Assembly (NCBI RefSeq): GCF_017592335.1
Contig: NZ_JACNMP010000005.1
Span: 1 to 64,000 of the forward strand
Direction: 5' to 3'
DNA length: 64,000 nt
Source of the DNA: Pseudaestuariivita rosea
GTDB lineage: Bacteria; Pseudomonadota; Alphaproteobacteria; Rhodobacterales; Rhodobacteraceae
Position 1 is the stretch's first letter. Every line of letters begins with the position of its first letter. The notes under the pieces are model-generated. The model was given only the letters and a program-made list of their open reading frames with translations, was not told the DNA's origin and did no database searches. Of this stretch, positions 456 through 39,201 are shown one piece after another. Both the position numbers and the translations under genes were made by a program.

Positions 456-494
456 TGGAGCGGGCGATGAGATTCGAACTCACCACCCTTACCT
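456..494. repeat. att site copy 1 (tRNA-Gly 3' part)
   Basis: 39 bases match the 3' part of tRNA-Gly at 43231-43269 with a single mismatch (G to C at 484 relative to the tRNA). The match stops in the anticodon arm, so this is not a working tRNA. Its place directly after an integrase remnant marks it as a junction left by site-specific integration into the tRNA gene. Confidence 0.85.
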
Positions 495-6038: not shown

Positions 6039-7583
6039 ATGACAGGTCAGCAACGAGCCGAGGCTCTGCGCCGAGAAATCTGGCAAATTGCCAACAGGGT
6101 GCGAGGAGCGGTTGACGGCTGGGACTTCAAACAGTTTGTCCTGGGCGCACTGTTCTATCGCTTCATCAGCGAGAACTTCATCAGCTACATCGAAGGTGGT
6201 GACGACAGCATCAACTATACCGGTATGGCCGACACAGACATCCCCGATGAAGCCAAAATCGATGCGATCAAGACCAAAGGATACTTCATCTATCCAAGTC
6301 AGCTTTTTGAAAACGTGGTCAAAACAGCAAACCAAAACGACAGCCTGAACACAGACCTGGCCGAAATCTTTACAGCGATTGAGGCCTCGGCCAATGGCTA
6401 CCCATCCGAGCAGGACATCAATGGTCTCTTTGCCGACTTCGACACCACCAGCAATCGCCTTGGCAGCACGGTCAAGCAAAAGAACGAAAGGCTTGCAGAA
6501 GTCTTAAAAGGGGTGGCTGGCTTGCCGCTGACATTCGAGGAAAACAAAAACGACCTCTTCGGCGACGCTTACGAGTTCTTGATTTCAAACTACGCCGCCA
6601 ACGCTGGTAAGTCGGGTGGTGAGTTCTTCACGCCGACGCATGTGTCCAAGCTGATCGCGAAACTGGCCATGCACAAGCAGACCAACGTCAACAAGATCTA
6701 TGATCCAGCGGCGGGTTCCGGATCGCTGCTTTTGCAGGCCAAGGAGGAGTTCGACAACCACATCATCGAAGACGGCTTCTTTGGGCAGGAGATCAACTAC
6801 ACCACCTACAATCTCGCCCGCATGAACATGTTCCTGCACAATATCAACTACGACAAGTTCAACATCCAGTACGGCAACACGCTGGAAGATCCGCATTTTC
6901 AGGATGACAAGCCCTTTGACGCCATCGTATCGAACCCACCGTATTCAGTGAAATGGAAAGGCGCGGATGATCCAACCCTGATCAATGATGAGCGCTTTGC
7001 GCCCGCCGGTGTTCTTGCCCCAAAGTCGAAGGCGGATTTCGCCTTTGTCCTTCATGCGCTGCACTACCTGTCGGCCAAGGGCCGCGCTGCGATCGTTTGC
7101 TTCCCTGGTATATTCTACCGTGGCGGGGCAGAGCAGAAGATCCGCAAGTATCTGGTCGACAACAACTTTGTTGAAACGGTGATCGCGCTCGCGCCGAACT
7201 TGTTTTTTGGCACGACCATCGCGGTGAACATTCTTGTGCTGGCAAAGAACAAGACTGACACGGCCGTTCAGTTCATCGATGCCACGGGCGAAGAGTTCTT
7301 CCGCAAAGGCACGAACAACAACTTCATGGAAGACCGGCACATTGCCGAGATCATGAAGATGTTCGACAACAAAGAGAACGTGCCTCATGTAGCTGAAACC
7401 GTCCCCTACGATACGATTGTCGAGAAAGACTATAACCTGTCGGTCAGTGCCTATGTTGAACCCAAGGACACCCGCGAAGTTGTCAATATCAAGGAGTTGA
7501 ACGCGAAGCTGGTGTCCACTGTCGCCAAGATTGACCAGCTACGCGCAGACATCGACGCCATCGTTGCGGAGATCGAGGCATGA
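6039..7583 (+). CDS. hsdM: type I RM DNA methyltransferase subunit M
   Basis: 514 residues from the ATG at 6039, chosen for the GGGGAGC ribosome site; a TTG at 5994 is in frame but unsupported. It begins with the HsdM N-terminal helical domain ([14 protein letters not shown]). The SAM-binding motif I is DPAAGSGSL at about 222-230 and the catalytic motif IV is NPPY at 299-302, which marks N6-adenine methylation. With HsdS it forms the modification enzyme, and with HsdR the restriction complex. The stop overlaps the hsdS ATG (ATGA at 7580-7583). It is the first gene of an operon ending at 13096. All key motifs are present, so the enzyme looks functional. Confidence 0.95.
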
Positions 7584-8830
7584 GCGATCTAAGCTTTCTG
7601 GAAAAGCTTCTGGATGGGGCTGCGGTCGAGTGGAAATCTGTTTCTGATATCTTCCATGTCAAAAACGGGTATACGCCGAGCAAGAGTAACAAGGCGTTCT
7701 GGGAGCATGGCACGGTTCCTTGGTTCAGGATGGATGACATCCGTGAAAATGGCCGAGTGTTGAGCCAATCGCTCCAGAATATCACTGAAGATGCAGTGAA
7801 GGGGGGGAAGCTGTTCCCCGCGAATTCGATGATATTTGCCACCTCGGCAACCATCGGAGAGCACGCACTGGTCACTGTTCCATACTTGGCAAATCAGAGG
7901 TTTACCAACCTCGCTTTGAAAGATGAGTATACAGAAAGTTTTGACCGTAAATTCTTGTTCTACTATGGTTTTTTGCTGGCAGATTGGTCCAAGAACAATA
8001 CGACGAAATCCAGCTTCGCATCTGTAGATATGGACGGTTTTCGCAAGTTTCCTGTGCCCATCCCATGCCCTGAGGACCCAGAAAAATCGCTCGCGATCCA
8101 AGCGGAGATTGTTCGGATTTTGGACAGCTTCACCGAGCTGACAGCCGAGCTTAAGGCCCGTAAGCAGCAATACAACCACTATCGAGAGCAATTGCTAGAC
8201 TATGAGGGCCAAGACGTTGAGCATTTGCCGATGGGTGACGAGCGGGTGGGATCCTTTACGCGCGGCGGCGGCCTTCAAAAGAAAGACTTCGCAGAGTCTG
8301 GAGTGGGCTGCATTCACTACGGTCAGGTTTACACCCACTACGGGACCTATGCCCACACAACAAAAAGCTTTGTTTCAGAAGAGTTTGCGAAGAAAGCTCG
8401 CATGGCAAAGCCGGGCGACTTGGTGATTGCGACAACGAGCGAGAACGATGAAGACGTCTGCAAGGCCGTCGCTTGGCTCGGCGATGAAGATATCGCGGTT
8501 AGCAGCGACGCGTGCTTTTACTCGCACAAGTTAAACCCTAAGTTTGTCGCCTACTTCTTCCAAACGGAGCAGTTTCAAAAACAAAAACGGGTTCACATTA
8601 CTGGCGCAAAGGTCAGACGTGTGAATGCCGACAACCTAGCCAAGATCTTGATCCCTGTCCCTTCTGCCGAAGAGCAAGACCGTGTTGTCGAAATCCTCGA
8701 CACGTTCGACACGCTGACCACATCGCTAAGCGAGGGCTTGCCGCGTGAAATCAAGTTGCGTCAGCAGCAGTATGAATACTACCGCGACCTTCTCTTGAGC
8801 TTTCCCAAACCCGAGGAGGCCGCGTTGTGA
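7580..8830 (+). CDS. hsdS: type I RM specificity subunit S
   Basis: 416 residues, the usual HsdS length. It has two variable target-recognition domains (about 15-170 and 220-360), each followed by a conserved helical spacer: [20 protein letters not shown] near 177 and [15 protein letters not shown] near 370, both ending with QQY-YREQLL-type sequence. It reads the bipartite DNA target and bridges two M subunits. The target cannot be predicted from the sequence by eye. It overlaps both neighbours by four bases (ATGA before, GTGA after), so translation is coupled along the operon. Confidence 0.93.
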
Positions 8831-10002
8831 GCCAGACCCTCGAGCAGATCGCGGAGCATCTGCGAGATGCCAACAAAAAGGTGCAGTTGATCTACGCTTT
8901 CAATGGCACCGGCAAAACCCGTCTTTCCCGCGCCATGAAAGACCTGATTGCCCCCAAGCCTGAAGAAGGTGAGGATGGCGAACCGTCTCGCGAAAAGGTG
9001 CTGTATTACAACGCGTTCACGGAAGACTTGTTCTACTGGGACAATGACCTTTTGGGCGATGGTGAGCCCAAACTGATGATCCAGCCGAACACTTTCACTG
9101 ACTGGATTCTTGGGGAGCAAGGCAAGGGCAATGAGGTAATTGCGAACTTCCAGCACTATACGAACAAGAACCTGACACCCGTCTTTTTGGAGGAAGACGG
9201 GTCATCGGCGGGTGGAAAAACCTATCCGTCGGTGTCTTTCTCCATAGCGACCGGAGATGACGAAGCTTCGAGTGGGATCAAGATTTCAAAAGGTGAGGAA
9301 AGCAACTTTATCTGGAGCATCTTCTATACCCTGATCGACGAGGTGGTTTCGGTTCTAGCTGTTCCTGAGCCTGCCGACCGGAGCACCAATCAGTTCGATA
9401 ATTTGGAGTACGTGTTCATCGACGATCCAGTGAGCTCGCTGGATGACAATCATCTGATTGAGCTGGCTCAGAACTTGGCGACATTGATCAAGATGGCTCC
9501 GCAAGATGGGCCAAAGTTCATCATCACCACTCACAACCCGCTGTTTTTTAATGTTCTTTTCAACGCTCTTAAGAAGGGGCTGAAGTATCGGCTTTCCCAC
9601 AACGACGACGGAACCTTCTCGCTTGAACCGCTACGAACCGATAGCCCTTTTTCCTACCATCTTCATCTGATTGAGCGGTTGAAGTCGGCCTCAGATGCCG
9701 ACGCCTTTGAAAAATATCATTACAATTTCTTGCGAAATATCTTGGAGAAAACTTCGACCTTTCTGGGGTATGACGACTGGTCAGAGTTGCTGCCAAAGAC
9801 GGCAGACGGAACCAACGATGCATACTTGAAGCGCATCGTCGATATTTCGAGCCACTCAAAACACTCTGGTTATGAACTGGCGGAACTCTCACAAGACGAC
9901 AAGCGTGTCTTAGGCTTTCTTCTGGGTGCTACGGCCAACAAGAAATATGAGTTTCCTGACAGGTATCAGGTGCCTTTGAGGGACGACGCGCAAGATGATT
10001 GA
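8827..10002 (+). CDS. PrrC/RloC-like ATPase, candidate anticodon nuclease
   Basis: 391 residues, GTG start overlapping the hsdS stop. Walker A is FNGTGKT (25-31); an ABC-signature-like ISKGEESN lies at 153-160; Walker B is [15 protein letters not shown] (196-210); the H-loop region is IITTHNP. This ABC-type layout with DDPxSSLD is that of the PrrC/RloC family (AAA_13). E. coli PrrC (396 aa, between prrB/hsdS and prrD/hsdR) cuts tRNA-Lys when phage disables the restriction enzyme, using an Arg-x3-Glu and a distal His. Here R303-x3-E307 and H343 or H346 could match that triad. Length, gene order and motifs agree; nuclease activity is inference. It could instead be another ATPase accessory of type I systems. 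Confidence 0.7.
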
Positions 10003-13000
10003 GCAGACGAAAACTATAGCCGAAACGAAGAATTTCATCGTCCTCGACAAGTATACCAAGGAGTGGGACGCCGCTGATCGGTACCAGAGCGAAGACGATC
10101 TGGAGCGCGAGTTAGTGCAGGATTTGGTCAATCAGGGCTATGAGTTCCTGCCCGCCCTGACGAATCCAGACGCGATGCTTGCCAACGTCCGAGTGCAGCT
10201 GGAACAGCTGAACAACGTCACGTTTTCAGATGATGAGTGGAAGCGTTTTGTGGAGACCTACCTCGACAAGCCTAGCGACGGCATCGTCGACAAAACCCGC
10301 AAGATTCACGATGACCACATCCATGATTTCGTTTTTGACGACGGGCGCATCCAGAACATCTACCTCTTCGACAAGAAGAACATGGCCCGCAACAATCTGC
10401 AGGTGATCAAGCAGTTCGAGCAAGTCGGTACGCACGCCAATCGCTATGACGTGACGATCCTGGTCAACGGTTTGCCATTAGTGCAGATCGAGCTGAAGAA
10501 GCGCGGCGTTGCGATCCGCGAGGCGTTCAACCAAATCCACCGCTATAGCAAAGAAAGCTTCAACAGCGAGCATTCCCTGTTCAAGTTCCTGCAGCTCTTC
10601 GTGATTTCGAATGGCACGGATACCCGGTATTTCGCCAACACGACCAAGCGTAACAAGAACAGCTTCGACTTTACCATGAACTGGGCAAAGTCCGATAACA
10701 GCTTGATCAAAGACTTGAAGGATTTTACAGCGACCTTCCTCCAGAAGCGTACGCTGCTGAACGTTTTGTTGCAGTATTCGGTTTTTGATGCGAATGACAC
10801 CTTGCTGGTCATGCGCCCTTACCAGATTGCCGCGACAGAACGCATACTGTGGAAGATCAAAAGCTCATATGAAGCCAGGAAGTGGCGAAAGCCGGAGGGA
10901 GGAGGCTTCATCTGGCACACGACCGGCTCTGGCAAGACTCTAACAAGCTTCAAGGCCGCGCGGTTGGCGACCGAGCTGGATTTCATCGAAAAAGTGTTCT
11001 TCGTCGTGGACCGCAAGGACCTCGACTACCAGACCATGAAAGAATACCTGAGGTTTTCACCTGACAGCGTCAACGGCTCTGACAGCACGGCCGGGTTGAA
11101 GCGCAACTTGAGCAAGGACGATAACAAGATTATCGTCACAACGATCCAGAAGCTGAACAACTTAATGAAATCGGAGGCTGACCTGCCGGTCTATGGTGAG
11201 CAAGTGGTCTTCATTTTCGACGAATGTCACCGCAGTCAGTTCGGCGAGGCGCAGAAAAACCTGAAGAAGAAGTTCAAGCGGTTCTATCAGTTTGGCTTCA
11301 CCGGAACGCCGATCTTTCCCGAAAATGCCCTGGGGGCCGAAACGACCTCAAGCGTGTTTGGGCCTGAGTTGCATTCCTACGTGATCACTGACGCTATTCG
11401 CGATGAAAAGGTACTGAAGTTCAAGGTCGACTACAACGATGTGCGCCCAAAGTTCAAAGCCATCGAAACAGAGCAAGACGAGAAAAAGCTCGGCGCCGAT
11501 GAAAACAAGCAAGCGCTGCTTCATCCAGAACGTATTCGAGAAGTCTCTCAGTACATCCTGAACAACTTCCGTCAAAAAACACATCGGATGCAGGCAGGAG
11601 GTAATGGGTTCAATGCCATGTTCGCCGTCAGCAGTGTAGAGGCGGCAAAGCTCTATTATGAAACCTTGAACGCCCTGCAATCCGATAGCGAAAAACCGTT
11701 AAAGATCGCGACGATCTTCTCGTTTGCAGCTAACGAAGAGCAAGATGCGATCGGGGACATTCAGGATGAGAGTTTTGATGTGTCAGCGATGAATAGCAGC
11801 GCGAAGGAATTTTTGAGCGCCGCAGTCGAAGACTATAATGCCTTTTTCAAGACAAATTTCAGTGTCGATAGCAGTGGTTTCCAAAACTACTATCGCGACC
11901 TTGCTAATCGCGTTCAATCGAAGGATGTCGACCTACTCATTGTCGTTGGCATGTTCCTTACGGGCTTTGATGCTCCAACGCTAAACACCTTGTTCGTCGA
12001 TAAAAATCTCCGCTACCACGGATTGCTACAAGCGTTCTCGAGGACCAACCGAATCTTCGATGCGACTAAGAGGTTCGGCAATATCGTCGCGTTCAGGGAC
12101 CTTGAGCAAGCCACCGTTGATGCGATCACGTTGTTTGGTGACAAGAACACTAAGAACGTCGTACTGGAAAAAAGCTACGACGAGTACATGAATGGTTTCG
12201 TTGACGAGGAAACTGGCGCGGCGCGGCGCGGCTTCATTGATGTTGTGAACGAGCTAACCGAACGCTTTCCCAATCCGGATGAGATTATCAAAGAAGAAGA
12301 TAAGAAGGAGTTCGCGAAGCTTTTTGGTCACTATCTTAGGGTAGAGAACGTGCTTCGGAACTACGATGAGTTCTCTGCATTGAAAGCCTATCAAGGTCTG
12401 GATGTACAAGACGCTGATGCTGTCGAAGAATTTAAGCAAAGGTACTACTTGAGCGACGATGATCTCCGTGACCTAGAAGCAATATACCTGCCTTCAGATA
12501 GAGCAATTCAAGACTATAGATCGACGTACAATGACATTCGCGATTGGCTGCGACGTGAGAAGTCATCAGCTGGGCAAGAACAGAGCAATGTCGAGTGGGA
12601 TGACGTTGTTTTCGAGGTGGACCTTCTGAAATCTCAAGAGATCAACCTGGACTACATCCTAGAGCTGATCTTCGAGAAGAATAAAGAGGCGAAGAGCAAA
12701 GGAGATCTAATTGAAGATGCGCGCCGTGTAATTCGCGGTAGTCTTGGTCACCGAGCGAAAGAAAATTTGATCGTTGATTTTCTCAATCAGACTGACCTCG
12801 ACCAGGTTGATGACAAGTCGGGTGTGCTGGAAGCATTTTATTCCTATGCTCAAGCCGAGCAACATAAGGAGGTCCAGGAGCTTATAAAGTCAGAGAACTT
12901 AAATTCTGACGCCGCTAAGCGTTATATTTCAGCCTCTATCAGACGTGAATTTGCAAGTGAAAACGGTGCTGACCTAAATACCATACTTCCTAAAATGAGC

Positions 13001-13096
13001 CCATTAAATCCGGAGTTTCGCACTAAGAAGAAGAACGTCCTTGAAAAGATTTCATCCTTCGTCGAAAAGTTTAAAGGGGTGGGCGGACAAATCTAG
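9995..13096 (+). CDS. hsdR: type I restriction endonuclease subunit R
   Basis: 1033 residues. The N-terminal nuclease domain has D152 and the E166-L-K168 motif (PD-ExK type, context VQIELKKRG). A superfamily 2 translocase follows, with Walker A TTGSGKT at about 309-315, DECH at 409-412, a FTGTPIF motif III segment, and [20 protein letters not shown] with FSRTNRIFD in the second RecA domain. The C-terminal part is helical, for assembly with HsdM/S. It moves DNA with ATP and cuts away from unmodified sites. It overlaps the end of the PrrC-like gene by 8 bases. The length and motifs are complete, so it is probably active. Confidence 0.95.
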
Positions 13097-15126: not shown

Positions 15127-15277
15127 GGGCTTTGTCCTTTTCGATGTGGGTTTTGCGGGCGTCCTGGGCGGCGCGCTGGCAAGCCTGTTCCCCGGCGGTG
15201 TAGCGGGCGTTGCCGAAGGCCCAGAGGCCGCCCAAGAGGATAAGCGCCAGAACGAGGATGAGCTTGATCCGGGTCAT
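15053..15277 (-). CDS. Rz-like inner membrane spanin
   Basis: 74 residues from the ATG at 15277, chosen because it overlaps the endolysin stop (ATGA) and gives a proper N-terminal membrane segment (IKLILVLALILLGGLWAF). A charged helical periplasmic part follows (QRAAQDARKTHIEKDKARD), the usual make-up of an i-spanin. The longer frame upstream has no membrane start. It pairs with the overlapping lipoprotein at 14890-15126. Confidence 0.7.
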   Translation of the reverse strand: MTRIKLILVLALILLGGLWAFGNARYTAGEQACQRAAQDARKTHIEKDKARDSQVDRLPDDSLLDAAREWLRQD

Positions 15278-15840
15278 GACGTGGCCCCTTGCTTGGCCAG
15301 CAACGCTGCGATCTGATCGCGAATGTCCCGCTTGACCCCGCTGGCGAAGATCGGGCGATAATCTTCGGTCAATCGTGTGATCTCCAGCACGGTGCCGTCG
15401 TTCGACCACTCCCCATGGAAGAACAGATCGCGTTCCTTTTCCCGGCGGGGAAGGATCTCGGCCGGTCGTCGCCAGTTCATAAAAGCCTGGCGCGCGCCGT
15501 CGATGTTACCCTCGTTCCAGAGCCGCACCCAGGTGGCGCGATGAACGCCGCCGGTGTTGAAGTCAAAGGACAGCGCGGCCGCAAACTGCGCCTCATTTAA
15601 CGTGCACAAACGGAATTCTCGGCGTACGCGGTCTGCGTAGCGCTGCAGCGACCAGACATAGACTTCAAGACAGCGTTCCAGCGAGGCCGGGTTGTCCTTG
15701 TAGCGCGGATAAACCTGATGCCCCGAGGCATTGGTCAGACCGATGCTCCAGGTCCAGACACCAACGCTGTCGCGATAGGCTTGCCGCACAAGGGCTTCAT
15801 GATGCGCTATCTCTAGCGCAACTTTGGCAGTGATTTGCAT
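15274..15840 (-). CDS. phage endolysin, GH24 lysozyme
   Basis: 188 residues from the ATG at 15840, preceded by GAGGA. The catalytic triad of T4-type lysozymes is visible with exact spacing: E15, eight residues, D24, five residues, T30. The segment SFDFNTGG is also typical of the family. It cuts the glycan strands of peptidoglycan at lysis. No signal or membrane anchor is visible from this start, so it should need the holin for export. The in-frame longer version (to 15906) adds a stretch with no ribosome site. It sits in the lysis cassette between an antitoxin-like gene and the spanins. Confidence 0.9.
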   Translation of the reverse strand: MQITAKVALEIAHHEALVRQAYRDSVGVWTWSIGLTNASGHQVYPRYKDNPASLERCLEVYVWSLQRYADRVRREFRLCTLNEAQFAAALSFDFNTGGVHRATWVRLWNEGNIDGARQAFMNWRRPAEILPRREKERDLFFHGEWSNDGTVLEITRLTEDYRPIFASGVKRDIRDQIAALLAKQGATS

Positions 15841-15853
15841 GGGGGGAGATTCC

Positions 15854-16045
15854 TCAGAGGTAGGCGTCAGAATGCAGACGATCCATGATCGCCCAAAGCG
15901 GATCAAAATCGCCTTTAGCCATCAGTTCGGCAGGTGCTGTGCCCCTAAGTTGCGGGTGTGGGCTTGTCAGCCAAATGCGGGTTTCGTCTTCTGTGTAATA
16001 ATGGCCGAGTTCATACCAGAGGTTTCGATCACAATCTGTCTTCAT
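15854..16045 (-). CDS. antitoxin-like protein (Xre/MbcA/ParS toxin-binding type)
   Basis: 63 residues from the ATG at 16045, preceded by AGAAAGGA. The C-terminal half, WLTSPHPQLRGTAPAELMAKGDFDPLWAIMDRL, follows the pattern WLxxPxPxLxGxxPxxLxxxG of the toxin-binding domain of Xre/MbcA/ParS antitoxins that pair with RES toxins. The N-terminal DNA-binding helices of full antitoxins are missing, and no RES toxin lies nearby. It is placed in the lysis cassette between the holin genes and the endolysin. Its role there is unknown; it may bind a host toxin. Confidence 0.6.
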   Translation of the reverse strand: MKTDCDRNLWYELGHYYTEDETRIWLTSPHPQLRGTAPAELMAKGDFDPLWAIMDRLHSDAYL

Positions 16046-16061
16046 CTGCGTGTCCTTTCTG

Positions 16062-16205
16062 TCAGCCAACCCACATTTCCCAAAGCACCGTGATCAGCAC
16101 GAGGACCAGGATGGCGATGATCCAGGCGCGGCATTCTTCGCCCGCCAGCTGGCGCAGGCAGGCCCACAGGCTGCGGTGATGGTCATCGTCTGGTCTATCG
16201 CTCAT
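16062..16205 (-). CDS. small membrane protein in lysis cassette
   Basis: 47 residues. The ATG overlaps the stop of the holin-like gene (ATGA at 16202-16205). A charged N-terminal half (DRPDDDHHRS, CRQLAGEECR) is followed by one C-terminal membrane segment (WIIAILVLVLITVLWEMW). This tail-anchored layout and the position suggest a second holin, antiholin or lysis accessory protein. No family is recognised. Confidence 0.6.
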   Translation of the reverse strand: MSDRPDDDHHRSLWACLRQLAGEECRAWIIAILVLVLITVLWEMWVG

Positions 16206-16570
16206 TTCCCACCTCCGATGCGCTTGGCCTGGGCTTCGACGAGGGAGACGACCATGCGGGCGACGGACATGCCGACGAGGCCTGCCAGAAAGCCGCTGGT
16301 CATATAGAGATCGGGGCCGGTGTCGAGTTTGAGGCCCGCACTGGCGAGCAAGGCCAGCACGATAGGGCCGAGGTAACTGGCGGCAATGGCGCCCGAGATC
16401 ACCGAGATCACACCATCGCGCAGCTTGCGGCGCTCGGCCATGAACCAGCGATAGAGGCCACCGAAGGCGCCAGCCGAGACCGCGCGGCCGGTTTCTCCGG
16501 TGAGCCAGGTCAAGACCGCCAGCCCGCCCTGGACCAGCCGATCCCAAAGGGTCGGATCATTGAGGGACAT
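16202..16570 (-). CDS. holin-like phage protein
   Basis: 122 residues with a GAAAGGA ribosome site. Three hydrophobic segments are seen: about 11-25 (weak), 54-77 and 90-109, separated by a basic loop (FMAERRKLRD). Size, membrane layout and position just upstream of the endolysin fit a holin that forms lesions in the inner membrane to release or trigger the endolysin. Related proteins occur in rhodobacterial prophages. The assignment is mainly from context. Confidence 0.65.
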   Translation of the reverse strand: MSLNDPTLWDRLVQGGLAVLTWLTGETGRAVSAGAFGGLYRWFMAERRKLRDGVISVISGAIAASYLGPIVLALLASAGLKLDTGPDLYMTSGFLAGLVGMSVARMVVSLVEAQAKRIGGGK

Positions 16571-16587
16571 GTTTTCGGGATCCTTTC

Positions 16588-17622
16588 TCAGTATTCACGC
16601 CACCAGACATTCGGCGTCCGGTTGAGGCGGTAGTACCATCCAGGGGGCACCACATAGGGACCCTGGGCTATCATGTTGATATGCGAGTTTGAGCTGCGGT
16701 CTAAAGCGGACTGACCGATAATCGTGAACGTGACCCCGTCATGCGAGATGTAAAAGAAGTTGGGGCCATCATTGTCGATGCGGGATTCATAAATTGACAC
16801 ATATCGCGGCCGCGCCCAGGTGTTCTGGTAGACCGTCCCGCCCGTGCGTTGTGCTGTGACATCCTGCACGCCACCGGGATCGCCGGGCTGACGTGCGTCA
16901 AAGGCCGTCCCGACCAGATTGGCATCCATGATCCCCGGCCCGGTCAGCGCTTCGGCCTCGGCAACCGTCGCCTTCGGCCGATTGCCGTCATGCCAGACGT
17001 CATGGCCATTGCGCCGGAGAGTAGAGCCACCACTGACATTGATGACGCCATTGCCTTGCTGGTCGATCACCAAGGCCCCATCGGCCCCCTGATTGCGATT
17101 GATCGAGGCCGCCGGGGTCACACCCGCTGCGTTGGCCGAGTAAAACCGGATCGCCGTCCAGAGGTTCGTGGTCAGCGCGGTGCCGAGATCAAGGGTTTGC
17201 CGCGTGCCAAAGACGCCCGCCACCCGCGCCGCAATCGCCTGAGCCACGCGCAGGGGCGTCATCAGTTTGCTGCTGATCACGCCCGCCTCAGCCTCGGCCT
17301 GAGTGGCGCGCGGGATGCGTTCGGCGGCAAACTCACCGCTGGTGATCAAAGGGGCACTGCGCAGGAAGGGCGCGACATCGGTGATGCTGTTGGTCTGGGG
17401 GTTGTAGCTCACCAGCGGGATATCCCCGGACCCGGTGAAGACCATCAGCCGGTTTTGTGTGGGCGTCTGTTCCTGCACCCACAGCAAGCCAGGCACGGCA
17501 TAGCTGGGGCGCGTGGGGCCACTGTGCCGGGCGTGGATGGCATCGCGCAGCTGCATCAGCATATCGGCCAGCTCAATGCCCGAGGTGTCGGGATCGATGA
17601 CCCCAAAATCATATTGCGTCAT
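16588..17622 (-). CDS. tail fibre / distal tail protein
   Basis: 344 residues from the ATG at 17622, which overlaps the stop of the J-like gene (ATGA). The middle has RATQAEAEAGVISSKLMTPLRVAQAI, a pattern common in phage tail fibre proteins, and a repeat-like RPKATVAEAEALTG. The C-terminal part (about 255-344) is aromatic and glycine-rich and would bind the host receptor. It is the last structural gene before the lysis cassette, where fibres usually lie. No chaperone gene is seen. Confidence 0.75.
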   Translation of the reverse strand: MTQYDFGVIDPDTSGIELADMLMQLRDAIHARHSGPTRPSYAVPGLLWVQEQTPTQNRLMVFTGSGDIPLVSYNPQTNSITDVAPFLRSAPLITSGEFAAERIPRATQAEAEAGVISSKLMTPLRVAQAIAARVAGVFGTRQTLDLGTALTTNLWTAIRFYSANAAGVTPAASINRNQGADGALVIDQQGNGVINVSGGSTLRRNGHDVWHDGNRPKATVAEAEALTGPGIMDANLVGTAFDARQPGDPGGVQDVTAQRTGGTVYQNTWARPRYVSIYESRIDNDGPNFFYISHDGVTFTIIGQSALDRSSNSHINMIAQGPYVVPPGWYYRLNRTPNVWWREY

Positions 17623-20600
17623 GTTTGAACTCTCCCATAGCCTTTCGCGACCCAATCGAATGTGCAGCTCACCCCCTGACCGGTGTCATCGACAAAGCGT
17701 TGCGTGAAGCCCGCCCGGCTGACCCCGGACCTTTCACTGACCGCGCCCGAGGGCAGACCCTGGCCGGTCACAGTGATCGCAGGCTTTTCCCGGAAGGCGG
17801 GCGTGAAGGGCACAAAGACCCCGGCCGGGGGACAGGGCACATCATCGCCCGCCTCAATGCGGTCGGGCATGTCGATCTCAATGGCGGCACTGTCCACGCG
17901 CACGGTGGCCTGCGGACTTGTGGTGGCCATCAGGATCCGGAACTGGAACCCGCGCGCAGCATAATCGCCCACGTAGAAATCCGCCCACTCAGTCCAGACC
18001 GCGGCCAGATCGGCAGGATCATCGACGGTAGTGCGCAATTGCAGCCGGATCGACCAGGCGGTATCGGCGACCCCGGTCAGGCTGTCTACATCGCGCAAGC
18101 GTTCCCAACTGGAGATCGCATTGGTCTCGCTGAACCCGAACGCGCGCAGCCGGGCGGACAGACGCGAGGCATAGACCTCGGTCAGATCGACCCTCTCGGC
18201 AAAGCTGTAACTGCCTTCGGTGATATCGCCGCCATCGTGGCGCAAGATCAACGATCCTGCCTCGATGACGACAGGCCCGCTACGGGGGCCCGGAAAGGCT
18301 GGGGCCTCATCCAGGGTTTTGACGACATTCAGCGCTTGCACGCAGCAGATCGCATTCTCGGCCGTGATCGCACTGCGGCTTTGGAAGCCAAAGATCGACA
18401 CGGCCTTGACCAGATAGGTGCCCTGCAGGGCGGGCACCGACAGGCTGCGGCCGGGCACCAGGGGATCGACATCAACGGCCTGGGGCCAGCCACCGGGCAG
18501 CCCGCGCGCCAGGAATTTCACATGGTAATGGGCCACAGCGCCTGTGGCCTCAGGCCAGGCCAATTCGATCCGCTCGCCCACCGCCGTGATCCGCAGGTCC
18601 GGCACATCGCCCGGAAAGAGCAGATCGGGGCCGACGGAGAAGGTCTTTTGGGTCACGCCAGAAGCCACGCCCAGGGCGTTCTGCGCAGAGACAAAGACCT
18701 CGAAGGGGCCTGTCGCTGTCCCCTCCAGGGGAATGTCGATGGATTGCACACGGGTCTCGGCCACGAGCGCCCGCACCCCATCGGCCCCTTTGAACTCGAC
18801 CCGCCAGGATAGCACCGTCGTACCGCCCGGTTGCTCCCAGGAGACTGTGGCCACCAGACCCGCCGGTTGCCTGCGATAAAAGAGGCGCGTCGCCAGGGCC
18901 TGGGGTGCGAGCGGGGGCCCCGTCACATCGGGCAGGAGATAGGGCGGTGGGTCTTCAACGCGCAGACCCTCTTCGATGCGCGCATATTTGTTCGGATCAT
19001 CTTCGACAGCCACAATGGTAAAGAGATGCTTGTCTGGCGTGTTGCTGATCACGCGGAACAAGCGCGGCGGCAGATTTGTGGCCCAGAGAATAAAGACCGC
19101 GCCCGGCACCACGTCAGGCGGCAGAGGTGTGCTGAGTTGGAGCCTCTGATGCAGATTGCCCGGTCCGTCGAGGCCCAGAACCACATCCACGCGGGTGATG
19201 TCGCCAAGCGTTTTGGCGACCAGCAGTTCCTGAGAGGCGTTCGGGTCGACGAGCGCAGGCGCATCGAGTTCGACCTCTCGCCGGTCGGGGCTGATCGAGA
19301 CCAGACGCCCGGTCATCCGAAAGCCACTGCGATATCTGTCCGAGATCAGAACACGGTCGCCCGGCCGGATGGCGGCATGATCAAACCCCGCCTGATAGGT
19401 GACACCTTCCTGCTGATTGATGTTGGTGTCGACCAGCCATTTGGCCTCGCGCAATGCGCCGCCGCGGCTGGTTTGATAAGGCAGACTGATGTCCACCTGC
19501 CGACGGTCAAACCTCTGAATGGCTTCAATGTTCTCATGCACCAGATTGGCCTTCAGCCGGTAGTGATCCGTGGGATCGCGATAGCTGGCCACAACGGCGG
19601 TCTTATGCGCAGCCAGCGCCGCCCCGGAATAGGTGAACGCGCCATCGACGACATTGGCATTGCTCACGAGTTTCACCGGATCGGAGGGCGCGTCCTGGAC
19701 AGGCACAATCGCCCCCGCGCCCCAATAGGTCACGCCGCGGAAGGTCGCCGAGAGCTGTGTGACCACATCATAGGCCGCTTCCCGTGTCATCATCACACCA
19801 TTGATCGTAAAGCGCGGCTCCTGTCCGCCCTGACCGTCATCGACCAGCGCATCGCAATACTTACCGATCTGATAAATCCGCCATTTATCGACGAGCTGTG
19901 GATCGATCCGCTCGCCCAACCCCCACCGGTCTTCAATGTAGACGGTATAGGTGAAGAAGGCCGGGTTATTGCTATAGGCGAGCTTAAAGGTGCCATCCCA
20001 GATCGTGGTTTCATCGTAGGTCCGGGTTTCTGGATCGTAGTTAATCGGCACCCAGCATTTGATGCCCTTCAGCCGATAGGACCGCCGGGGGATGCGCCCG
20101 CCAAAGGCCTGCGCCGGGACTGCTAGGGCGACATAGGCGGTGTTGGGATAGGTCAGCTTGGCGTCGATGATCTCGGCATAGGACACAAAGAAGGTATCAT
20201 TCTGCAGCGCGGAGGACTCAGAGTCTGGCGTCTCGCGCACCAGGCGGATCGAGACTGGGCGGATGTCTGGCAGCTCAACGCGGTAGGCCCTCTGATAGCC
20301 CGAGGTGGTTTTGCCGCTGGTCGTATAGGTGCCAACGCGCTCCCAATTCCCGGCCCCGGCTTGCATATCAATGTGATAGGTGACCGAGGTGCCTTTCAGA
20401 TCGCCATCGTCTTCCTGTTTGGTCAGCACCGAGAACCCGACCTTGATCCGGACGGCATCGACATCGGCCGACGAGATCGTGCGGGTGACAGGCAGGTCTT
20501 TGGTGAACTGCACCCCGACGTTGATCTCGTTCTCGACCTGGGCAAAGCCCGGCACCGGCTCCTGATCCGGCAGCCCCGTGCGCAGAAAGAACTCAACGCC

Positions 20601-20825
20601 CTCGACGGTGAACGTCCCGTCTGCACTCTGCAGCGGTGTGTCGTCGAAGTAGATACATTTGGCGGGGTTTTCGGGGTCTGCCCAACCCTCAATCGGCCCC
20701 TCGGAAACGACATCGATGATATAGGCTGTTGAGTCCGTCAGAAGGTTATCGGGCGCTTCTTTCGGCGTGCGGCTGGACCCGCCGCCCTTACCGCCGCCCC
20801 CTGCGCCACGAAGGGGCTTGGTCAT
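17619..20825 (-). CDS. tail tip attachment protein (lambda J-like)
   Basis: 1068 residues. The glycine-rich N-terminus (GAGGGGKGGGSSRTPKEAPDNLLTDSTAYIID) leads into the host-specificity domain with EGPIEGW, typical of lambda gpJ. Later come a tail domain (about 330-600) and fibronectin-III-like parts (about 640-830), then a C-terminal beta-rich part. It forms the central fibre at the tail tip that contacts the host. It is ATGA-coupled to both neighbours, in the order K-I-J as in lambda. The C-terminal half usually decides host range. Confidence 0.9.
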   Translation of the reverse strand: MTKPLRGAGGGGKGGGSSRTPKEAPDNLLTDSTAYIIDVVSEGPIEGWADPENPAKCIYFDDTPLQSADGTFTVEGVEFFLRTGLPDQEPVPGFAQVENEINVGVQFTKDLPVTRTISSADVDAVRIKVGFSVLTKQEDDGDLKGTSVTYHIDMQAGAGNWERVGTYTTSGKTTSGYQRAYRVELPDIRPVSIRLVRETPDSESSALQNDTFFVSYAEIIDAKLTYPNTAYVALAVPAQAFGGRIPRRSYRLKGIKCWVPINYDPETRTYDETTIWDGTFKLAYSNNPAFFTYTVYIEDRWGLGERIDPQLVDKWRIYQIGKYCDALVDDGQGGQEPRFTINGVMMTREAAYDVVTQLSATFRGVTYWGAGAIVPVQDAPSDPVKLVSNANVVDGAFTYSGAALAAHKTAVVASYRDPTDHYRLKANLVHENIEAIQRFDRRQVDISLPYQTSRGGALREAKWLVDTNINQQEGVTYQAGFDHAAIRPGDRVLISDRYRSGFRMTGRLVSISPDRREVELDAPALVDPNASQELLVAKTLGDITRVDVVLGLDGPGNLHQRLQLSTPLPPDVVPGAVFILWATNLPPRLFRVISNTPDKHLFTIVAVEDDPNKYARIEEGLRVEDPPPYLLPDVTGPPLAPQALATRLFYRRQPAGLVATVSWEQPGGTTVLSWRVEFKGADGVRALVAETRVQSIDIPLEGTATGPFEVFVSAQNALGVASGVTQKTFSVGPDLLFPGDVPDLRITAVGERIELAWPEATGAVAHYHVKFLARGLPGGWPQAVDVDPLVPGRSLSVPALQGTYLVKAVSIFGFQSRSAITAENAICCVQALNVVKTLDEAPAFPGPRSGPVVIEAGSLILRHDGGDITEGSYSFAERVDLTEVYASRLSARLRAFGFSETNAISSWERLRDVDSLTGVADTAWSIRLQLRTTVDDPADLAAVWTEWADFYVGDYAARGFQFRILMATTSPQATVRVDSAAIEIDMPDRIEAGDDVPCPPAGVFVPFTPAFREKPAITVTGQGLPSGAVSERSGVSRAGFTQRFVDDTGQGVSCTFDWVAKGYGRVQT

Positions 20826-21397
20826 GCGCGATCCTCAATATGGATGGCGGCCGAGGCGACGACCGATCCCACCTCGCATTCGCCCACCAGCACCGGCACC
20901 GCGACCCCCGGCGTGGTGACATTCGTCGCGCTGTTGAAGAGTTGGGACTTGGGCTGTTCCCGGTCATCGTAATCCGCCTCAATCGGCGGTGGGGCCAGCA
21001 TCTGCGAGATGCCGCCCAGCACCATCGCCGCGCCCATTTGCGTGAGCGCCGCGGCAAAGGCCGGACCGACCCCTGGAATGAACGAGGCTGCAATCAGAAC
21101 CGCGCCAGTGATGATCTTGCCGAGACCGCCGTCTTTCGCGCCTTGCGCGCGCGGCACGATATGCAGCTCGGTCTCCTCCGGGGCAAAAGCGATATGCAGC
21201 TCCTGGGGTGACTGATCGCGCCCGTCGACCTCGGCCCCGCGAAAGACCTGATAGAGCCGGTCCCGCACATGGGCCTCAAACCCCTCAACCAGGGTGCAGA
21301 GTGCGCGCACCGCCTCGGCCGGGGTGTCGATGGCCAAGCGATGTTCGCGACCAAAGGCTTTGCCCAGGGCCCCGTGTAGGTAGATGGTGCGGATCAT
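20822..21397 (-). CDS. tail assembly protein (lambda I-like)
   Basis: 191 residues from the ATG at 21397; a longer frame runs through the divergent HicAB genes and is not used. The start MIRTIYLHGALGKAFG and the middle (PAEAVRALCTLVEGFEAHV) match tail assembly protein I of lambdoid phages. A hydrophobic, glycine-rich segment (ITGAVLIAASFIPGVGPAFA) follows, as in that family. It is needed for tail tip assembly. In lambda, K directly precedes I; here a HicAB pair lies between them. Confidence 0.85.
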   Translation of the reverse strand: MIRTIYLHGALGKAFGREHRLAIDTPAEAVRALCTLVEGFEAHVRDRLYQVFRGAEVDGRDQSPQELHIAFAPEETELHIVPRAQGAKDGGLGKIITGAVLIAASFIPGVGPAFAAALTQMGAAMVLGGISQMLAPPPIEADYDDREQPKSQLFNSATNVTTPGVAVPVLVGECEVGSVVASAAIHIEDRA

Positions 21398-21457
21398 CGG
21401 CAGAAAGCTTTGCACATTGTCTCTTGCGTTTTCATACTTATTTGTGCATAAAAAACC

Positions 21458-21643
21458 GTGACCAAGAGACGCGATATCATCAAGGCGCTGGAAGCGGCCG
21501 GGTTTGTCAGCAAAGGTGGCACCAACCACGAGAAGTGGCTCCACGCAGATGGGCGCAGCACCATTGTGGGACGCCACAAGGACATCCCGCTGCCAACCGC
21601 CCGGATGATCGCAAAGCAGGCTAAAATCAAACTGCCGAAGTAG
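21458..21643 (+). CDS. hicA: HicA-family mRNA interferase toxin
   Basis: 61 residues, GTG start. The fold is that of HicA: KRRDIIKALEAAGF, a glycine, then the catalytic-histidine segment GGTNHEKWLHADGR and an end of ARMIAKQAKIKLPK. HicA cuts mRNA and is blocked by HicB. It is read against the tail operon, with its partner 11 bases downstream. The HicAB pair was evidently inserted as its own cassette (moron) between tail genes K and I. The histidine is present, so the toxin should be active. Confidence 0.9.
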   Translation: MTKRRDIIKALEAAGFVSKGGTNHEKWLHADGRSTIVGRHKDIPLPTARMIAKQAKIKLPK

Positions 21644-21654
21644 GAAAGACCGAG

Positions 21655-22038
21655 ATGCCAAAGACGATCAGTAAGGAAGTCCGGCTCTACCCCGTGGTTC
21701 TGCACCGGGAGGGCGATATCTGGGGGTATTTCAGCCCGGAATTCGGCGGCGGCGGCGCGGCCACCGAGGCCGATGCCCTGCGTCTGGCCCAGGAGATGGT
21801 GGAGAGTGCCCTGGCAGAGCTCTCCGAAGAGGGCCAGGACCTGCCCGAGCCCACAGGACTTGAGCACCTTGAAACAGATGGCGGCAAACTGGTGTTCATT
21901 CCGGCGATGATCAGCAATGCGGCCGAGCGCATTTTTCTCACCTTGCCAAAATCCCTGATTGCCCGGATCGATGCGGTTACAAGCAATCGGTCTGCGTTTT
22001 TCGCGGAACTGGCGCGCGAACGTTTGGAGTCGCATTAA
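21655..22038 (+). CDS. hicB: HicB-family antitoxin
   Basis: 127 residues. The N-terminal part has the HicB pattern YPVVLHREGDIWGYFSPEFGG, GGAATEADALRLAQEMVESAL. The C-terminal part (LPKSLIARIDAVTSNRSAFFAEL) looks like a ribbon-helix-helix DNA-binding domain, so it should repress its own operon as well as neutralise HicA. Its stop overlaps that of the converging tail gene K by four bases, so the cassette is tightly fitted into the tail operon. Such pairs stabilise prophages or act against other phages. Confidence 0.9.
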   Translation: MPKTISKEVRLYPVVLHREGDIWGYFSPEFGGGGAATEADALRLAQEMVESALAELSEEGQDLPEPTGLEHLETDGGKLVFIPAMISNAAERIFLTLPKSLIARIDAVTSNRSAFFAELARERLESH

Positions 22039-22814
22039 GCCCCCTTAAACCTCAACCAATGGGTGATGTGTTTCAGCTTGCGGGCAATGGGTTCGCGATG
22101 GGACAGGTTGCCCTGCATGTGTTCCAGCAGTAGCCCGTCGCCCAGGTAAATCCCGCCGTGGTTCGGCACGCGGGACCGCACTGCCATCAGGTAGACATCG
22201 CCCGGTTGGGCGATGGCGGCATAGGTTTCCGGGGCCGTGGACAAGATTTCGAACCGCTGCCCATGCAGATTGTCCAGGTACATCCCGGTTTTGAGATCCT
22301 TCTCGGTCCACCATTCCCAGTCGCGTGGCATCTCGTCGAGGATCTCGCCGTAGACCTCGGCATAGAAATCCCGAATGAGCGTATAGCAATCGCTCACCCC
22401 ATGCAGAAAGGCGCGGGGCACATGCAGATCGCCCTGGAACACCGGCGGGCGTGTCCCGCCCCAATGGCAGGCGAGCGCCGCACTGTCCTCGCCCGGCACC
22501 AGGATCGCCCAGGGCACATCGGTCTCGATCTGGCCCAGCATATCGGCTTTCGACGGCCACCAGGGCCCGCCGGGATGGGAATGGATCACACCTTCCAGAT
22601 CGCCTGCCGCATAGGCTTCTGCAATGTCTTTTGGCGCGATCTCAAAAGCCGCTGTGGGATCCGCGGCCCGGTTTTCGCAGGGCACGAAGTTCCCCGCCCG
22701 AACCAGCCCACAGCGCTCGACCGTTGGGTCTTCACAGACCCAGGCCATGGCCTCCTTTAAAACCGCCTTCGTAAACGGGGCCACTGGCTGGCGAAAGAAA
22801 TCAGGACGGAGCAT
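22035..22814 (-). CDS. tail protein K-like, JAMM and NlpC/P60 domains
   Basis: 259 residues from the ATG at 22814. The N-terminal half is a JAB/MPN+ peptidase domain with the full JAMM motif: HSHPGG, then S and D (PSKADM), and an upstream acidic residue. The C-terminal half is NlpC/P60: catalytic Cys in SDCYTLIRDFY and His in NHGGIYLG. Lambda gpK has the same two domains and helps tail tip assembly and local peptidoglycan opening on entry. All catalytic residues seem to be present. It lies 5 bases after the L-like gene. Confidence 0.9.
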   Translation of the reverse strand: MLRPDFFRQPVAPFTKAVLKEAMAWVCEDPTVERCGLVRAGNFVPCENRAADPTAAFEIAPKDIAEAYAAGDLEGVIHSHPGGPWWPSKADMLGQIETDVPWAILVPGEDSAALACHWGGTRPPVFQGDLHVPRAFLHGVSDCYTLIRDFYAEVYGEILDEMPRDWEWWTEKDLKTGMYLDNLHGQRFEILSTAPETYAAIAQPGDVYLMAVRSRVPNHGGIYLGDGLLLEHMQGNLSHREPIARKLKHITHWLRFKGA

Positions 22815-22819
22815 TGTTC

Positions 22820-23581
22820 TTACGCCCGGAACTTTCCAGCGCCGGGGAACCCGCCGAAGGGCAGTCTGGCATTTTCCCCGAAGCGCAATTTGCAATCGGT
22901 GAGACTTTTGCCGCAGCGATCCTGGGTGACAGACTCCACCCTATTGCCATTGGCGTCAAAATACATCGGGCCGACATAGGGACAGGTGGCATTGGTGTAA
23001 TCGAAGGTCCCATCCGGATTGGCCCGCCGATAGGTCCACTGGCAATAGTTCAGCACCTGGCGGCGGGGCAGTATGACGTCTTCCAGATCCAGCGCGGCCT
23101 GCAGTTGGAATTCGACCATCACTGGCGTCTGGTTGGTCTTCTGCGCGACGATATAGATCTGCACGCCCAGATGCGCCTGCGGATTGGGATCGTCCCCATC
23201 GTCGAGGTGCTTGCGCAGGGTTTGCATGCGGGTGAGTGTCGCGCCCAGAAAGTCATTATAGACCTCGACCAGGGACAACAGGAAGGCCGCGGCCGAGGCC
23301 TGATCCCCATCCTCCCGCGCCATCAGAAAGCGCACCGTGGGCCTCGGCAAAGGTCCACCAGCCACCCAGTCCCAGCCCTCGGACTCAAACGGAATGACCG
23401 TATAGCTTTGACCCGCAAAGACGGGCACCTGCTGTTGTCCCGCCGCATTGACAACAGGCGTCGGCGCGAAGTGATAGACATCTCCGCCGATCTTGCGGGC
23501 ATCGACGGTAAAAAGATCAATGACCTCGCCCACCTCGAATGTTTCCAGTTCGGCCCGGACGCTGTCGACAAATTCATCCAT
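22820..23581 (-). CDS. minor tail protein L-like
   Basis: 253 residues; the start is at an ATGATG and the second ATG (23581) is chosen. The C-terminal part has four cysteines in the arrangement seen in lambda gpL (YCQWTYR, TCPYVG, DRCGKSLTDCKLRF), which in lambda hold an iron-sulfur cluster. The N-terminal part (VDLFTVDAR-like) fits the tail hub family. It sits between the M-like and K-like genes, as in lambda. Confidence 0.88.
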   Translation of the reverse strand: MDEFVDSVRAELETFEVGEVIDLFTVDARKIGGDVYHFAPTPVVNAAGQQQVPVFAGQSYTVIPFESEGWDWVAGGPLPRPTVRFLMAREDGDQASAAAFLLSLVEVYNDFLGATLTRMQTLRKHLDDGDDPNPQAHLGVQIYIVAQKTNQTPVMVEFQLQAALDLEDVILPRRQVLNYCQWTYRRANPDGTFDYTNATCPYVGPMYFDANGNRVESVTQDRCGKSLTDCKLRFGENARLPFGGFPGAGKFRA

Positions 23582-23943
23582 CACAGAATATCAAACTCCT
23601 GTCTGAAAGTGGCGCGCAGGCGCCAGAAAGGCGTTGTGCCACGCCAGCCGATCGGGGCCTGTGTCCAGGCCGCGCATGTCCAAAGCCGCGCGGTGCTTTG
23701 CCAGGGCAGCTGATAGAGAAAGGCCTCGGCCCCGCGGCGCGCGGCCAGGAACCGGGCGATGACGTCTTTGTCCGGCTCGGCCAGGTCCCAGACCAGGGCC
23801 GCGGTTTGGCGCAGCGCATTGGGACCGGTTGTCGAGCGCTGGCTGTAGCCGCCCTCGAACTCGGCCCGGCGCGTGCTTGTCTCGTAGCGCTCTTCATAGC
23901 CCTCGATCGTGGGCTGGACGGGCGGGGCAAAGACCAGAGCCAT
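23581..23943 (-). CDS. minor tail protein M-like
   Basis: 120 residues. The start PVQPTIEGYEERYETSTRRAEFEGGYSQR followed by VWDLAE and an end of FRQEFDIL fits the phage minor tail protein M family. It is part of the tail tip and connects the tape measure end with the hub. It overlaps the end of the tape measure gene by one base and is followed directly by the L-like gene. Confidence 0.85.
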   Translation of the reverse strand: MALVFAPPVQPTIEGYEERYETSTRRAEFEGGYSQRSTTGPNALRQTAALVWDLAEPDKDVIARFLAARRGAEAFLYQLPWQSTARLWTCAAWTQAPIGWRGTTPFWRLRATFRQEFDIL

Positions 23944-26900: not shown

Positions 26901-27236
26901 CGAACTGCGGGTCCGCAGTGCGAGCCCCACCAGCGCCTCTTCGGCGGCCGTGCCGCTTTCGCCGATCGACAGCAACCGCCGTTCCACGCTGCGCCAGGCC
27001 TCGCCATATTGCCGCAATTGCGCCAGCGCCGCCCCAGAGAGAACCCCCGTCAGACCCGCCACCGCGGTCCGCATACCTGTGATCGCACGCGTGGACCGTT
27101 CCCATCGTTTGTCGATCCGATTGAGACGGGTGTTGGTCAGGCGTTCCTGACGCGCCAGGCTGCGATCATAGCGCGCGGCCCCCCGGTCATAGGATCGGGT
27201 ATCGGCCAGATATTCCGTCAGAATGACGTTTTTCAT
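23943..27236 (-). CDS. tail tape measure protein
   Basis: 1097 residues, the longest phage gene here. It has a TMP N-terminal domain (GTAAAVQRLSRSTGDDLETTVRRVETLQKLLAAGG, LRATAEAQALTTD), a hydrophobic region around 415-440 (MAFFGGPLGLALTGLSLAVGYF), long coiled-coil stretches (about 460-560 and 740-860, Ala/Glu/Arg-rich) and a Gly-rich C-terminus with GEAGPEAILPL, a tape measure hallmark. Its length should set the tail length (roughly 160 nm, using about 1.5 angstrom per residue). It is preceded by two chaperone genes. Confidence 0.92.
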   Translation of the reverse strand: MKNVILTEYLADTRSYDRGAARYDRSLARQERLTNTRLNRIDKRWERSTRAITGMRTAVAGLTGVLSGAALAQLRQYGEAWRSVERRLLSIGESGTAAEEALVGLALRTRSSLEGTAAAVQRLSRSTGDDLETTVRRVETLQKLLAAGGATGAERSSVTLQLGQALQSGVLSGDEFRSIRETAPVEFLDALAQAAGVTRAELRATAEAQALTTDVVLEALDSLATSADANFDRLAVSGEEAFAILRTGLVAYVGQLDESLGATEAMNGAMAGLGRILSENAGGAETVARAFTLVTTAALGLAGARGLGALTRSFQSAAQARQQDVQAAQAQLTQSKLARAAADAEVRKRQTNLLLMRQEGASKAQLTREQKALNAAIRQQLAASTGILTATARQEAALRRLSLAARVTTGSMTALRGVMAFFGGPLGLALTGLSLAVGYFATMQSTGDRLSDTLQTLETDLSRLGDVNRSLAKDYDLLEKANQRVEAAIRAGEQASKEAADADVANIKRRIAANEEMSRNLIAQLQVQRQQAQQDLEKLITDSSLALQTGLRGPGSGLGMAFEVLLDRDGFEADMQAMRQEFLATAQTAAAAGEPLTDLQKEVIALAVQTDEAQLKMAALDDQIRILTDGTPALEGGLDSGTEAAENLGTAAATAAGQVDGLIRLIPRLRSSLRVEEDLAAARQARDQALAGAADLSEVEQINALYREAAREILGVVAAERERTEALQDAQDAARNYASEAAIGQLDRRQQALAREEARYRGIVAELKAAGAAQEDLTRAEEAYLLRRQQIEGGAFAGSDAGRLARQEARDKEREAAAAIAEYEARTLSDAEKITREKERLLALMPQLISSGLSEADAQDVVNAQLDDYKKRLDEVKTASERATESVVKGALEAYRRTGDVADAIGSISDRLYDLAADQIFDIIAERIAGAFAGLGGGGGGGLGGALASFGVSLFSARGNVFDRGDVTPFARGGVVTRPTGFMYGGGRLGVMGEAGPEAILPLERGPDGRLGVTAQVPVIPEGMTSSAGSAEGGMHVSVSFTGDIVIHTQSDEPDAMAGEMVRQFEGMFEQMFARSLQRASRGGGYLDQTYERKRGT

Positions 27237-28983: not shown

Positions 28984-28985
28984 CT

Positions 28986-29564: not shown

Positions 29565-29577
29565 GCCGCCAGGCCCG

Positions 29578-29898: not shown

Positions 29899-29936
29899 CT
29901 GGATTTCCTTTTTGAGTTTGAAGGGGAGGGCGCGGG

Positions 29937-31253: not shown

Positions 31254-31340
31254 CATCTCTTTTCTCCTTTTCAGCCTGACAGATTGCCCGGCCCCCATGG
31301 CCCGGACGGGATTTCAGATCATGGTCTGTGGGGTTGCGCG

Positions 31341-36118: not shown

Positions 36119-36135
36119 TGATCAGATAACCCCAA

Positions 36136-39140: not shown

Positions 39141-39201
39141 GATGGTGCTCTGGAAACGATACGGATCGCATAGCGCCACATACTAATATGATTAAGAAAG
39201 T

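Follow-up and report, generated by a model that had tools for sequence, protein, structure and literature searches.

The first 64,000 nucleotides of a Pseudaestuariivita rosea contig (the window, meaning this whole stretch) carry at positions 6039-13096 an operon in which a type IC restriction-modification (R-M) system is encoded together with PrrC, a latent anticodon nuclease. With a probability of roughly 90%, we read it as an R-M system whose Hsd proteins silence the nuclease, which is freed when a phage blocks restriction, the whole being probably prophage cargo. The operon is a textbook bacterial back-up defence, joining restriction to a built-in tRNA-cutting suicide enzyme; it is real and ordinary in kind, and adds one more PrrC, with a clear catalytic triad and a likely prophage home, to a family first described in the 1980s. 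The comparative result outweighs the single locus: among relatives, two types of tRNA-cutting domain (tRNase) have apparently been mixed onto different nucleoside triphosphatase (NTPase) and R-M backbones.

Four intact, overlapping frames on the + strand, all with their motifs present, follow the order hsdM-hsdS-ATPase-hsdR, as the original prediction had placed them. hsdM (6039..7583) encodes the 514-aa type IC DNA methyltransferase subunit (TIGR00497, E=1e-184; N6_Mtase, E=2e-113) with an NPPY motif at residue 299, and its ATG at 6039 is preceded by AAGAAGGGGAG. hsdS (7580..8830) encodes the 416-aa DNA specificity subunit, matched by Methylase_S over two stretches (E=5e-39) and by the PADLOC model Specificity_I (E=3e-170). 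prrC (8827..10002; 391 aa) starts with GTG and overlaps hsdS by 4 nt and hsdR by 8 nt. hsdR (9995..13096) encodes the 1033-aa type IC restriction and translocase subunit with the motifs IELKK, GSGKT and DECH, matched by TIGR00348 (E=2.7e-201) and, at the type I HsdR C terminus, by EcoR124_C (E=1.5e-67), EcoR124 being described in passages of PMC3014915 as a type IC enzyme. Promoter and terminator scans of the operon region scored at chance level, and Rfam at gathering thresholds gave no match over 5600-13600.

Against the PADLOC models, the 391-residue ATPase matched PrrC at E=6.1e-137 over residues 3-379, with the next models at 3e-17 or worse. The ATP-binding cassette (ABC)-type motifs predicted for it were all found, namely a Walker A (AFNGTGKT, residues 24-31), a signature (SKGEE, 154-158), a Walker B/D-loop (197-206) and an H-switch (TTHNP, 234-238). 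To align the protein with a reference, we used the 396-aa protein of two Escherichia coli loci annotated as anticodon nuclease (L082 and L086), which we took as canonical PrrC because it carries R320, E324, H356 and D287 at the positions named in the available text of PMC3014915; it is a database protein with matching residues and not necessarily the sequence used in the published experiments. The two proteins share 50% identity over 399 columns. Residues 271-371 of the window protein (9637..9939, + strand), delimited by this alignment and by nuclease-only trees, align with the E. coli nuclease domain as the original prediction anticipated, with R303 (9733..9735), E307 (9745..9747) and H343 (9853..9855), all on the + strand, at the places of R320, E324 and H356. 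Lack of conservation of the triad among close homologues had been set beforehand as a refuting outcome; instead, all 81 of 81 sequences in the alignment share these three residues. The predicted triad had left the histidine open between H343 and H346; H346 was dropped as a catalytic residue, since it falls outside the columns conserved at 90% in the 81 sequences and has no histidine counterpart in E. coli PrrC. A 15-residue PrrC box in the N-terminal domain is mentioned in part of PMC3014915; in residues 60-74 of the window protein 14 positions are identical in 81 of 81 sequences and position 62 in 76, which makes this nearly invariant stretch a candidate for the published box.

We then modelled the whole window PrrC with AlphaFold2 on an alignment of 60 sequences, reaching a mean predicted local distance difference test score (pLDDT) of 81.7. 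The best VIA-align matches of model residues 1-272 were Rad50/SMC heads (Z 12.7, root-mean-square deviation (rmsd) 4.1, 230 aligned), and together with the model they delimit a predicted Rad50/SMC-head-like ABC ATPase at residues 1-246 (8827..9564, + strand). Modelled alone, the nuclease domain gave a mean pLDDT of 83.5 and is predicted to be helical, with four long helices; PrrC and RloC nuclease domains are assigned to the HEPN superfamily in the accessible part of PMC3710099, and the HEPN entries 2hsb (Z 5.7, rmsd 4.0, 101 aligned) and 1wol (Z 5.2, rmsd 3.8, 99 aligned) were among the matches. Less favourably for our reading, these scores are close to or tied with those of unrelated bundles (top Z 6.5), Foldseek returned no match to the nuclease-domain model at E<=0.001, and a sequence search for a solved structure of a PrrC relative found none. 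The structure prediction gave a helical C-terminal domain without a clear fold match, a result that speaks neither for nor against the HEPN placement.

The association of prrC with hsd genes is strictly conserved in the 80 best genomic relatives of the window PrrC, where hsdS lies upstream and hsdR downstream on the same strand in 80 of 80, in line with the statement in PMC2610378, as far as its text was available, that prrC orthologues are invariably tied to a type IC system. hsdM lies upstream in 75 of the 80; of the five loci without it, four have a prrC start less than 1.4 kb from a contig end. Measured between aligned ends, the hsdS-prrC gap exceeds 100 nt in 4 of 80 loci and the prrC-hsdR gap exceeds 300 nt in 4 of 80, two loci being in both sets. 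One alignment (A1) took in 59 of these 80 loci and another (A2) 63 loci. The E. coli prr locus, which encodes PrrC with the type IC enzyme EcoprrI, has the same order hsdM-hsdS-prrC-hsdR and the same 8-nt prrC/hsdR overlap as the window, and its PrrC resembles that of the window in NTPase motifs, triad and length. By contrast, the window protein lacks a 16-residue N-terminal insert and the N-K of the E. coli sequence DSNKSFSY, and its spacing from the catalytic glutamate to the histidine is X35 rather than X31.

The original prediction of a PrrC-type guard for a type I restriction operon is supported by the alignment of the C-terminal domain to E. coli PrrC and by the invariant triad. Carrying over the silencing, trigger, cleavage and target from E. 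coli PrrC, we propose that the type IC enzyme (HsdM, HsdS and HsdR) would be guarded by the anticodon nuclease of its own operon. In the resting cell, PrrC would be bound and silenced by the Hsd complex; inhibition of restriction by an infecting phage would cause the Rad50-like NTPase domain to change state, and the released C-terminal domain, with its triad R303-E307-H343, would cleave the anticodon loop of a host tRNA, in all likelihood tRNA-Lys(UUU) on the 5′ side of the wobble base, halting translation and preventing phage spread.

By this analogy tRNA-Lys(UUU), which the host encodes (core GACTTTTAATC), is the likeliest target and our best guess. Passages of PMC3014915 report that peptide 284-294 of E. 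coli PrrC crosslinks to the tRNA anticodon stem-loop, that D287 is thought to contact the modified wobble base, and that the recognition sequence is kept in only a subset of PrrC proteins, whose substrates may vary as the sequence varies. The candidate recognition motif of the window, placed by alignment and given its role from the same passages, is D272-S-P-F-S-Y277 (9640..9657, + strand), equivalent to E. coli D287-S-N-K-S-F-S-Y294 without N-K. A point against tRNA-Lys is that the exact form of the E. coli peptide is not kept (DS-PFSY versus DSNKSFSY), so the target of the window PrrC could differ. Nuclease domains of the closer relatives fall into two types, NK (DSNKSFSY-like, as in E. coli) and PF (DS-PFSY, as in the window), with the more distant group III PrrC kept apart from this comparison. 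Among 102 rows, the identity of the nuclease domain to that of E. coli PrrC is 61-94% in 16 other NK rows and 39-50% in 85 PF rows, and the ranges do not overlap. This gap, the altered motif and glutamate-to-histidine spacing and the published expectation of varying substrates would all suit a PF-type enzyme that cuts a tRNA other than tRNA-Lys, an alternative that we consider doubtful although worth weighing. D272, the D287 equivalent, is aspartate in 80 of 81 aligned sequences and is retained together with the triad, and group III proteins also lack N-K, yet PrrC170 of Klebsiella quasipneumoniae, whose 35% identity and gene order would place it in that group, was traced by tRNA sequencing to tRNA-Lys in the part of PMC11555353 available.

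The repeats and genes around the operon suggest that it is probably cargo of the adjoining prophage. PHROGs identified endolysin, tail fibre J, tape measure, major head protein, protease, portal, terminase and integrase genes over 15274..43154, with 8 of 10 scanned proteins matched and one of the two unmatched (13568-14806) lying outside this interval. The tyrosine integrase (42072..43154, + strand; phrog_1, E=3e-31; PF00589, E=4.9e-9) ends 76 bp from the tRNA-Gly(GCC) gene (43231..43305, − strand; ARAGORN), the putative integration site. Repeat comparison revealed a 39-bp copy of the 3′ part of this tRNA gene, with one mismatch, at 456..494, preceded immediately by a degenerate integrase tail at 236-455. 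We regard this copy, at the distal end of the element, and the tRNA-Gly gene as putative attachment (att) sites; because the operon lies inside the interval that they bound, it is most simply prophage cargo. The prediction of a prophage-associated island accordingly held for the location of operon and prophage in one interval, with carriage itself only likely. In the only congener compared (G221), tRNA-Gly adjoins the chromosomal genes that also form the right flank of the window (77% over 5 kb), inspection by eye of the open reading frames (ORFs) listed beside it showed no recognisable phage gene, and the genome gave no PrrC family-model match. A HisF-like gene beyond the tRNA in the congener matches another contig (C81) of the window's genome at 96%, as expected if the element separates it from the tRNA; the small gene nearest the congener tRNA, by contrast, matches other contigs weakly, at 59% and 56%.

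Alternatively, the R-M/PrrC operon could be a chromosomal or accreted island beside the prophage that is not packaged with it, which we judge unlikely, at well under even odds. Several observations weigh on this side and against carriage. A shorter imperfect copy of tRNA-Gly at 1161-1183 and the integrase tail at 236-455 suggest repeated insertions, and several successive insertions at the same tRNA-Gly are probable; the 2.3-9 kb flanks of relatives L002-L009 held none of the window phage proteins searched, and a phage collection held no PrrC match at E 1e-5. Moreover, the window begins at base 1 of its contig, leaving the left flank beyond the sequence, and the argument for carriage is one from repeats and synteny. 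The repeat search, by contrast, listed no additional att copy from 1183 to 43231, and of 20 virus records that contain a PrrC relative, 4 have a terminase match at E below 1e-30 as well, one of the four having stops inside the match and another a distant group III protein. One E. coli prr locus (L082) also belongs to a plasmid on which terminase and late-promoter genes are found. Relatives of the window tail-fibre protein, searched for cargo of sister phages, yielded one fragment only.

Given the two nuclease types, we compared the histories of the two PrrC domains. The motif had served to define the types at a point when no NTPase tree had yet been looked at. A full-length tree of 103 rows, omitting L095 and L097 (near copies of L094 and L098), L086 (identical to L082) and the distant L107, separated NK and PF by one branch with support 100, as if they were two old clades; the NK-like L106 was in no group for this tree and was counted as NK later. 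This split was not seen in the first NTPase-only tree, a quick tree that lost five rows to a motif filter (L035, L062, L063, L088 and L104) and needed 12 type changes for NK, and the absence of the split led us to consider exchange. Domain trees were then built for 65 rows, hand-picked from the 103 as all 17 NK-like and 48 of 86 PF, and for 78 rows, which added 11 NK and 2 PF. In both nuclease-only trees one branch with support 100 separates NK from PF, whereas the NTPase-only trees contain 11-14 type changes, at least 3 of them forced by starred branches. An approximately unbiased (AU) test on the NTPase data rejected a single NK clade with p=2.3e-4 (65 rows) and p=1.6e-10 (78 rows). NTPase-domain identity to E. 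coli PrrC overlaps widely between the types, with 60-75% for NK versus 58-73% for PF (102 rows).

A pair of operons illustrates the pattern. L009 (Tateyamaria, PF) and L022 (Ruegeria, NK) are 86% identical in the NTPase domain and 42% in the nuclease domain, compared with a nuclease identity of at least 62% in 27 same-type pairs (not independent of one another) with NTPase identity of 80-90%. At the DNA level, the two agree at 77-95% over most of hsdM, at 42-58% in a stretch that runs from the hsdM end into the first part of hsdS, at 77-94% over the remainder of hsdS and the greater part of the NTPase domain, at 47-61% over the nuclease domain, and at 75-87% over the first half of hsdR and 70-79% thereafter. 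Compared in 200-base steps with L094 and L009, the window operon itself is 72-94% identical in hsdM and hsdR and 47-70% in prrC from about 9040 to 10040, whereas with L002, at a similar hsdR distance, prrC is 77-88% identical; this pattern fits a replacement that took in more of prrC. From these profiles prrC resembles hsdS in looking like a variable cassette within an otherwise conserved operon.

Could this signal reflect uneven rates or misalignment rather than recombination? The domain trees are quick, were made without bootstraps from partly hand-chosen rows and leave many forks open, the NTPase domain is short and long branches are present. Furthermore, the type label on the NTPase trees is more clustered than in shuffles, with values as low in 2 of 500 (65 rows) and 0 of 500 (78 rows), which implies that the domains are not independent and that exchange was occasional rather than free. 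The AU test, the gap between the L009/L022 domains relative to same-type pairs, and the drop of DNA identity over the nuclease part (separately from the first part of hsdS) with its recovery in hsdR nevertheless make such an artefact quite improbable.

On the exchange reading, conserved operons seem to have traded tRNase domains, in a direction suggested by the flanking genes of one pair. We speculate, with somewhat less than even confidence, that the sensor NTPase stays together with the hsd genes that it guards and that the C-terminal tRNase has been repeatedly swapped at a fixed boundary around residue 235-246, much like hsdS target-recognition domains, in which case the two tRNase types would cope with different tRNA, tRNA modification or phage decoy. 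The apparent exchange is a comparative pattern across the PrrC family, not an experimental property of the window operon, and a literature search covering few subscription papers found no report of PrrC tRNase-domain exchange among the titles, abstracts and passages that it covered. If true, trading tRNases would let operons outrun the repair of tRNAs by phages as well as the tRNAs that phages carry. The ready-made natural chimaeras could then be used to ask which half of PrrC senses the state of the restriction enzyme, which one determines the tRNA chosen, and whether the exchange is driven by phage tRNA repair or by decoy tRNAs.

PF had first looked like the commonest type because a PF query had been used to select the initial relatives by similarity. 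This impression was removed by searching 295, 398 and 385 genomes, some of them shared, with a family model: keeping only matches with E at most 1e-40, it gave 28 loci, comprising 11 NK (9 by pattern, plus L114 and L170 by eye), 4 PF (including the window itself and one fragment), 12 group III (7 by pattern and 5 by eye) and the unassigned L160. E. coli loci such as L084, L085 and L087, in which the DNA match stops near base 791, had been suspected of carrying a different C-terminal domain; the domain found there is a PF-type nuclease.

The ATPase of the operon is, judged from its sequence, PrrC and not RloC, so that of the predicted PrrC/RloC-like identity only the first half stood. RloC of Geobacillus and Acinetobacter, according to the portions of PMC2610378 available, also combines an ABC ATPase with an anticodon-nuclease triad, and its R-X3-E-X36-52-H lies near the R-X3-E-X35-H of the window, but the zinc-hook coiled-coil insert is missing from the window protein, which has no long insert and no cysteine in its 391 aa (zinc-hook CXXC, 0), RloC proteins are described there as 658-897 aa long, excising the wobble nucleotide and R-M-linked in only 8 of 73 cases in place of the type IC link seen here, and 8 strong PrrC family matches (E<=5.2e-127) are separate from the weak ones (E>=9.4e-15), mostly in longer frames, making an RloC-type nuclease with wobble excision and a DNA-damage trigger extremely unlikely.

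PrrC170 resembles the window protein as an R-M-linked ABC-tRNase with the triad; it is reported in the accessible part of PMC11555353 to be 35% identical to E. coli PrrC and to block T1 and T7, and its operon is described there as HsdR, HsdS, PrrC, HsdM. For the PrrC proteins of H. influenzae and S. mutans, PMC2610378 mentions activity as unpublished results. The group III PrrC genes at L143 (5980-7095) and L144 (5935-7050) lie on conjugative Klebsiella plasmids, one of which is pNDM-KN, in the order hsdR, a TrlF-like gene, an RNA-binding/RecG-like gene, hsdS, prrC and hsdM. They thus differ from the window in having two extra genes and another gene order, and their proteins, which also lack N-K, are 35% identical to the window PrrC and 33-34% to E. 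coli PrrC and have SHG instead of SHS. The E. coli prr locus at L082 (prrC at 6001-7191) is likewise on a plasmid, accompanied by terminase, a late-promoter activator, PdcA and a death-on-curing/Phd toxin-antitoxin pair; we take this plasmid to be a P1-like phage-plasmid.

PARIS (AriAB) is not known to be embedded in an hsd operon. Like PrrC, it is a guard that answers anti-restriction, an analogy drawn in the available text of PMC9122126, and it differs in its effector, AriB being a Toprim nuclease according to part of PMC12409363.

The non-phage genes scanned around the operon gave nothing firm in Pfam and PADLOC scans apart from a DUF4123 protein. Between hsdR and the lysis genes, two − strand ORFs (13157-14806) had no Pfam or PADLOC match at E 0.01, and the longer also had no PHROGs match. 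On the other side of the R-M operon, towards the distal att copy, 1571-5643 encodes the DUF4123 protein (PF13503, E=1.4e-25), a 629-aa protein without a family match and three ORFs of about 100 aa that look alike by eye, an arrangement that resembles a type VI secretion effector accompanied by an adaptor and by repeated immunity genes. Downstream of the hsd-prrC operon of the closest relative (Litoreibacter, L002), a DUF4123 protein 37% identical to that of the window is encoded at 14889-15788, and its presence near both operons may be either chance or a shared cargo neighbourhood.

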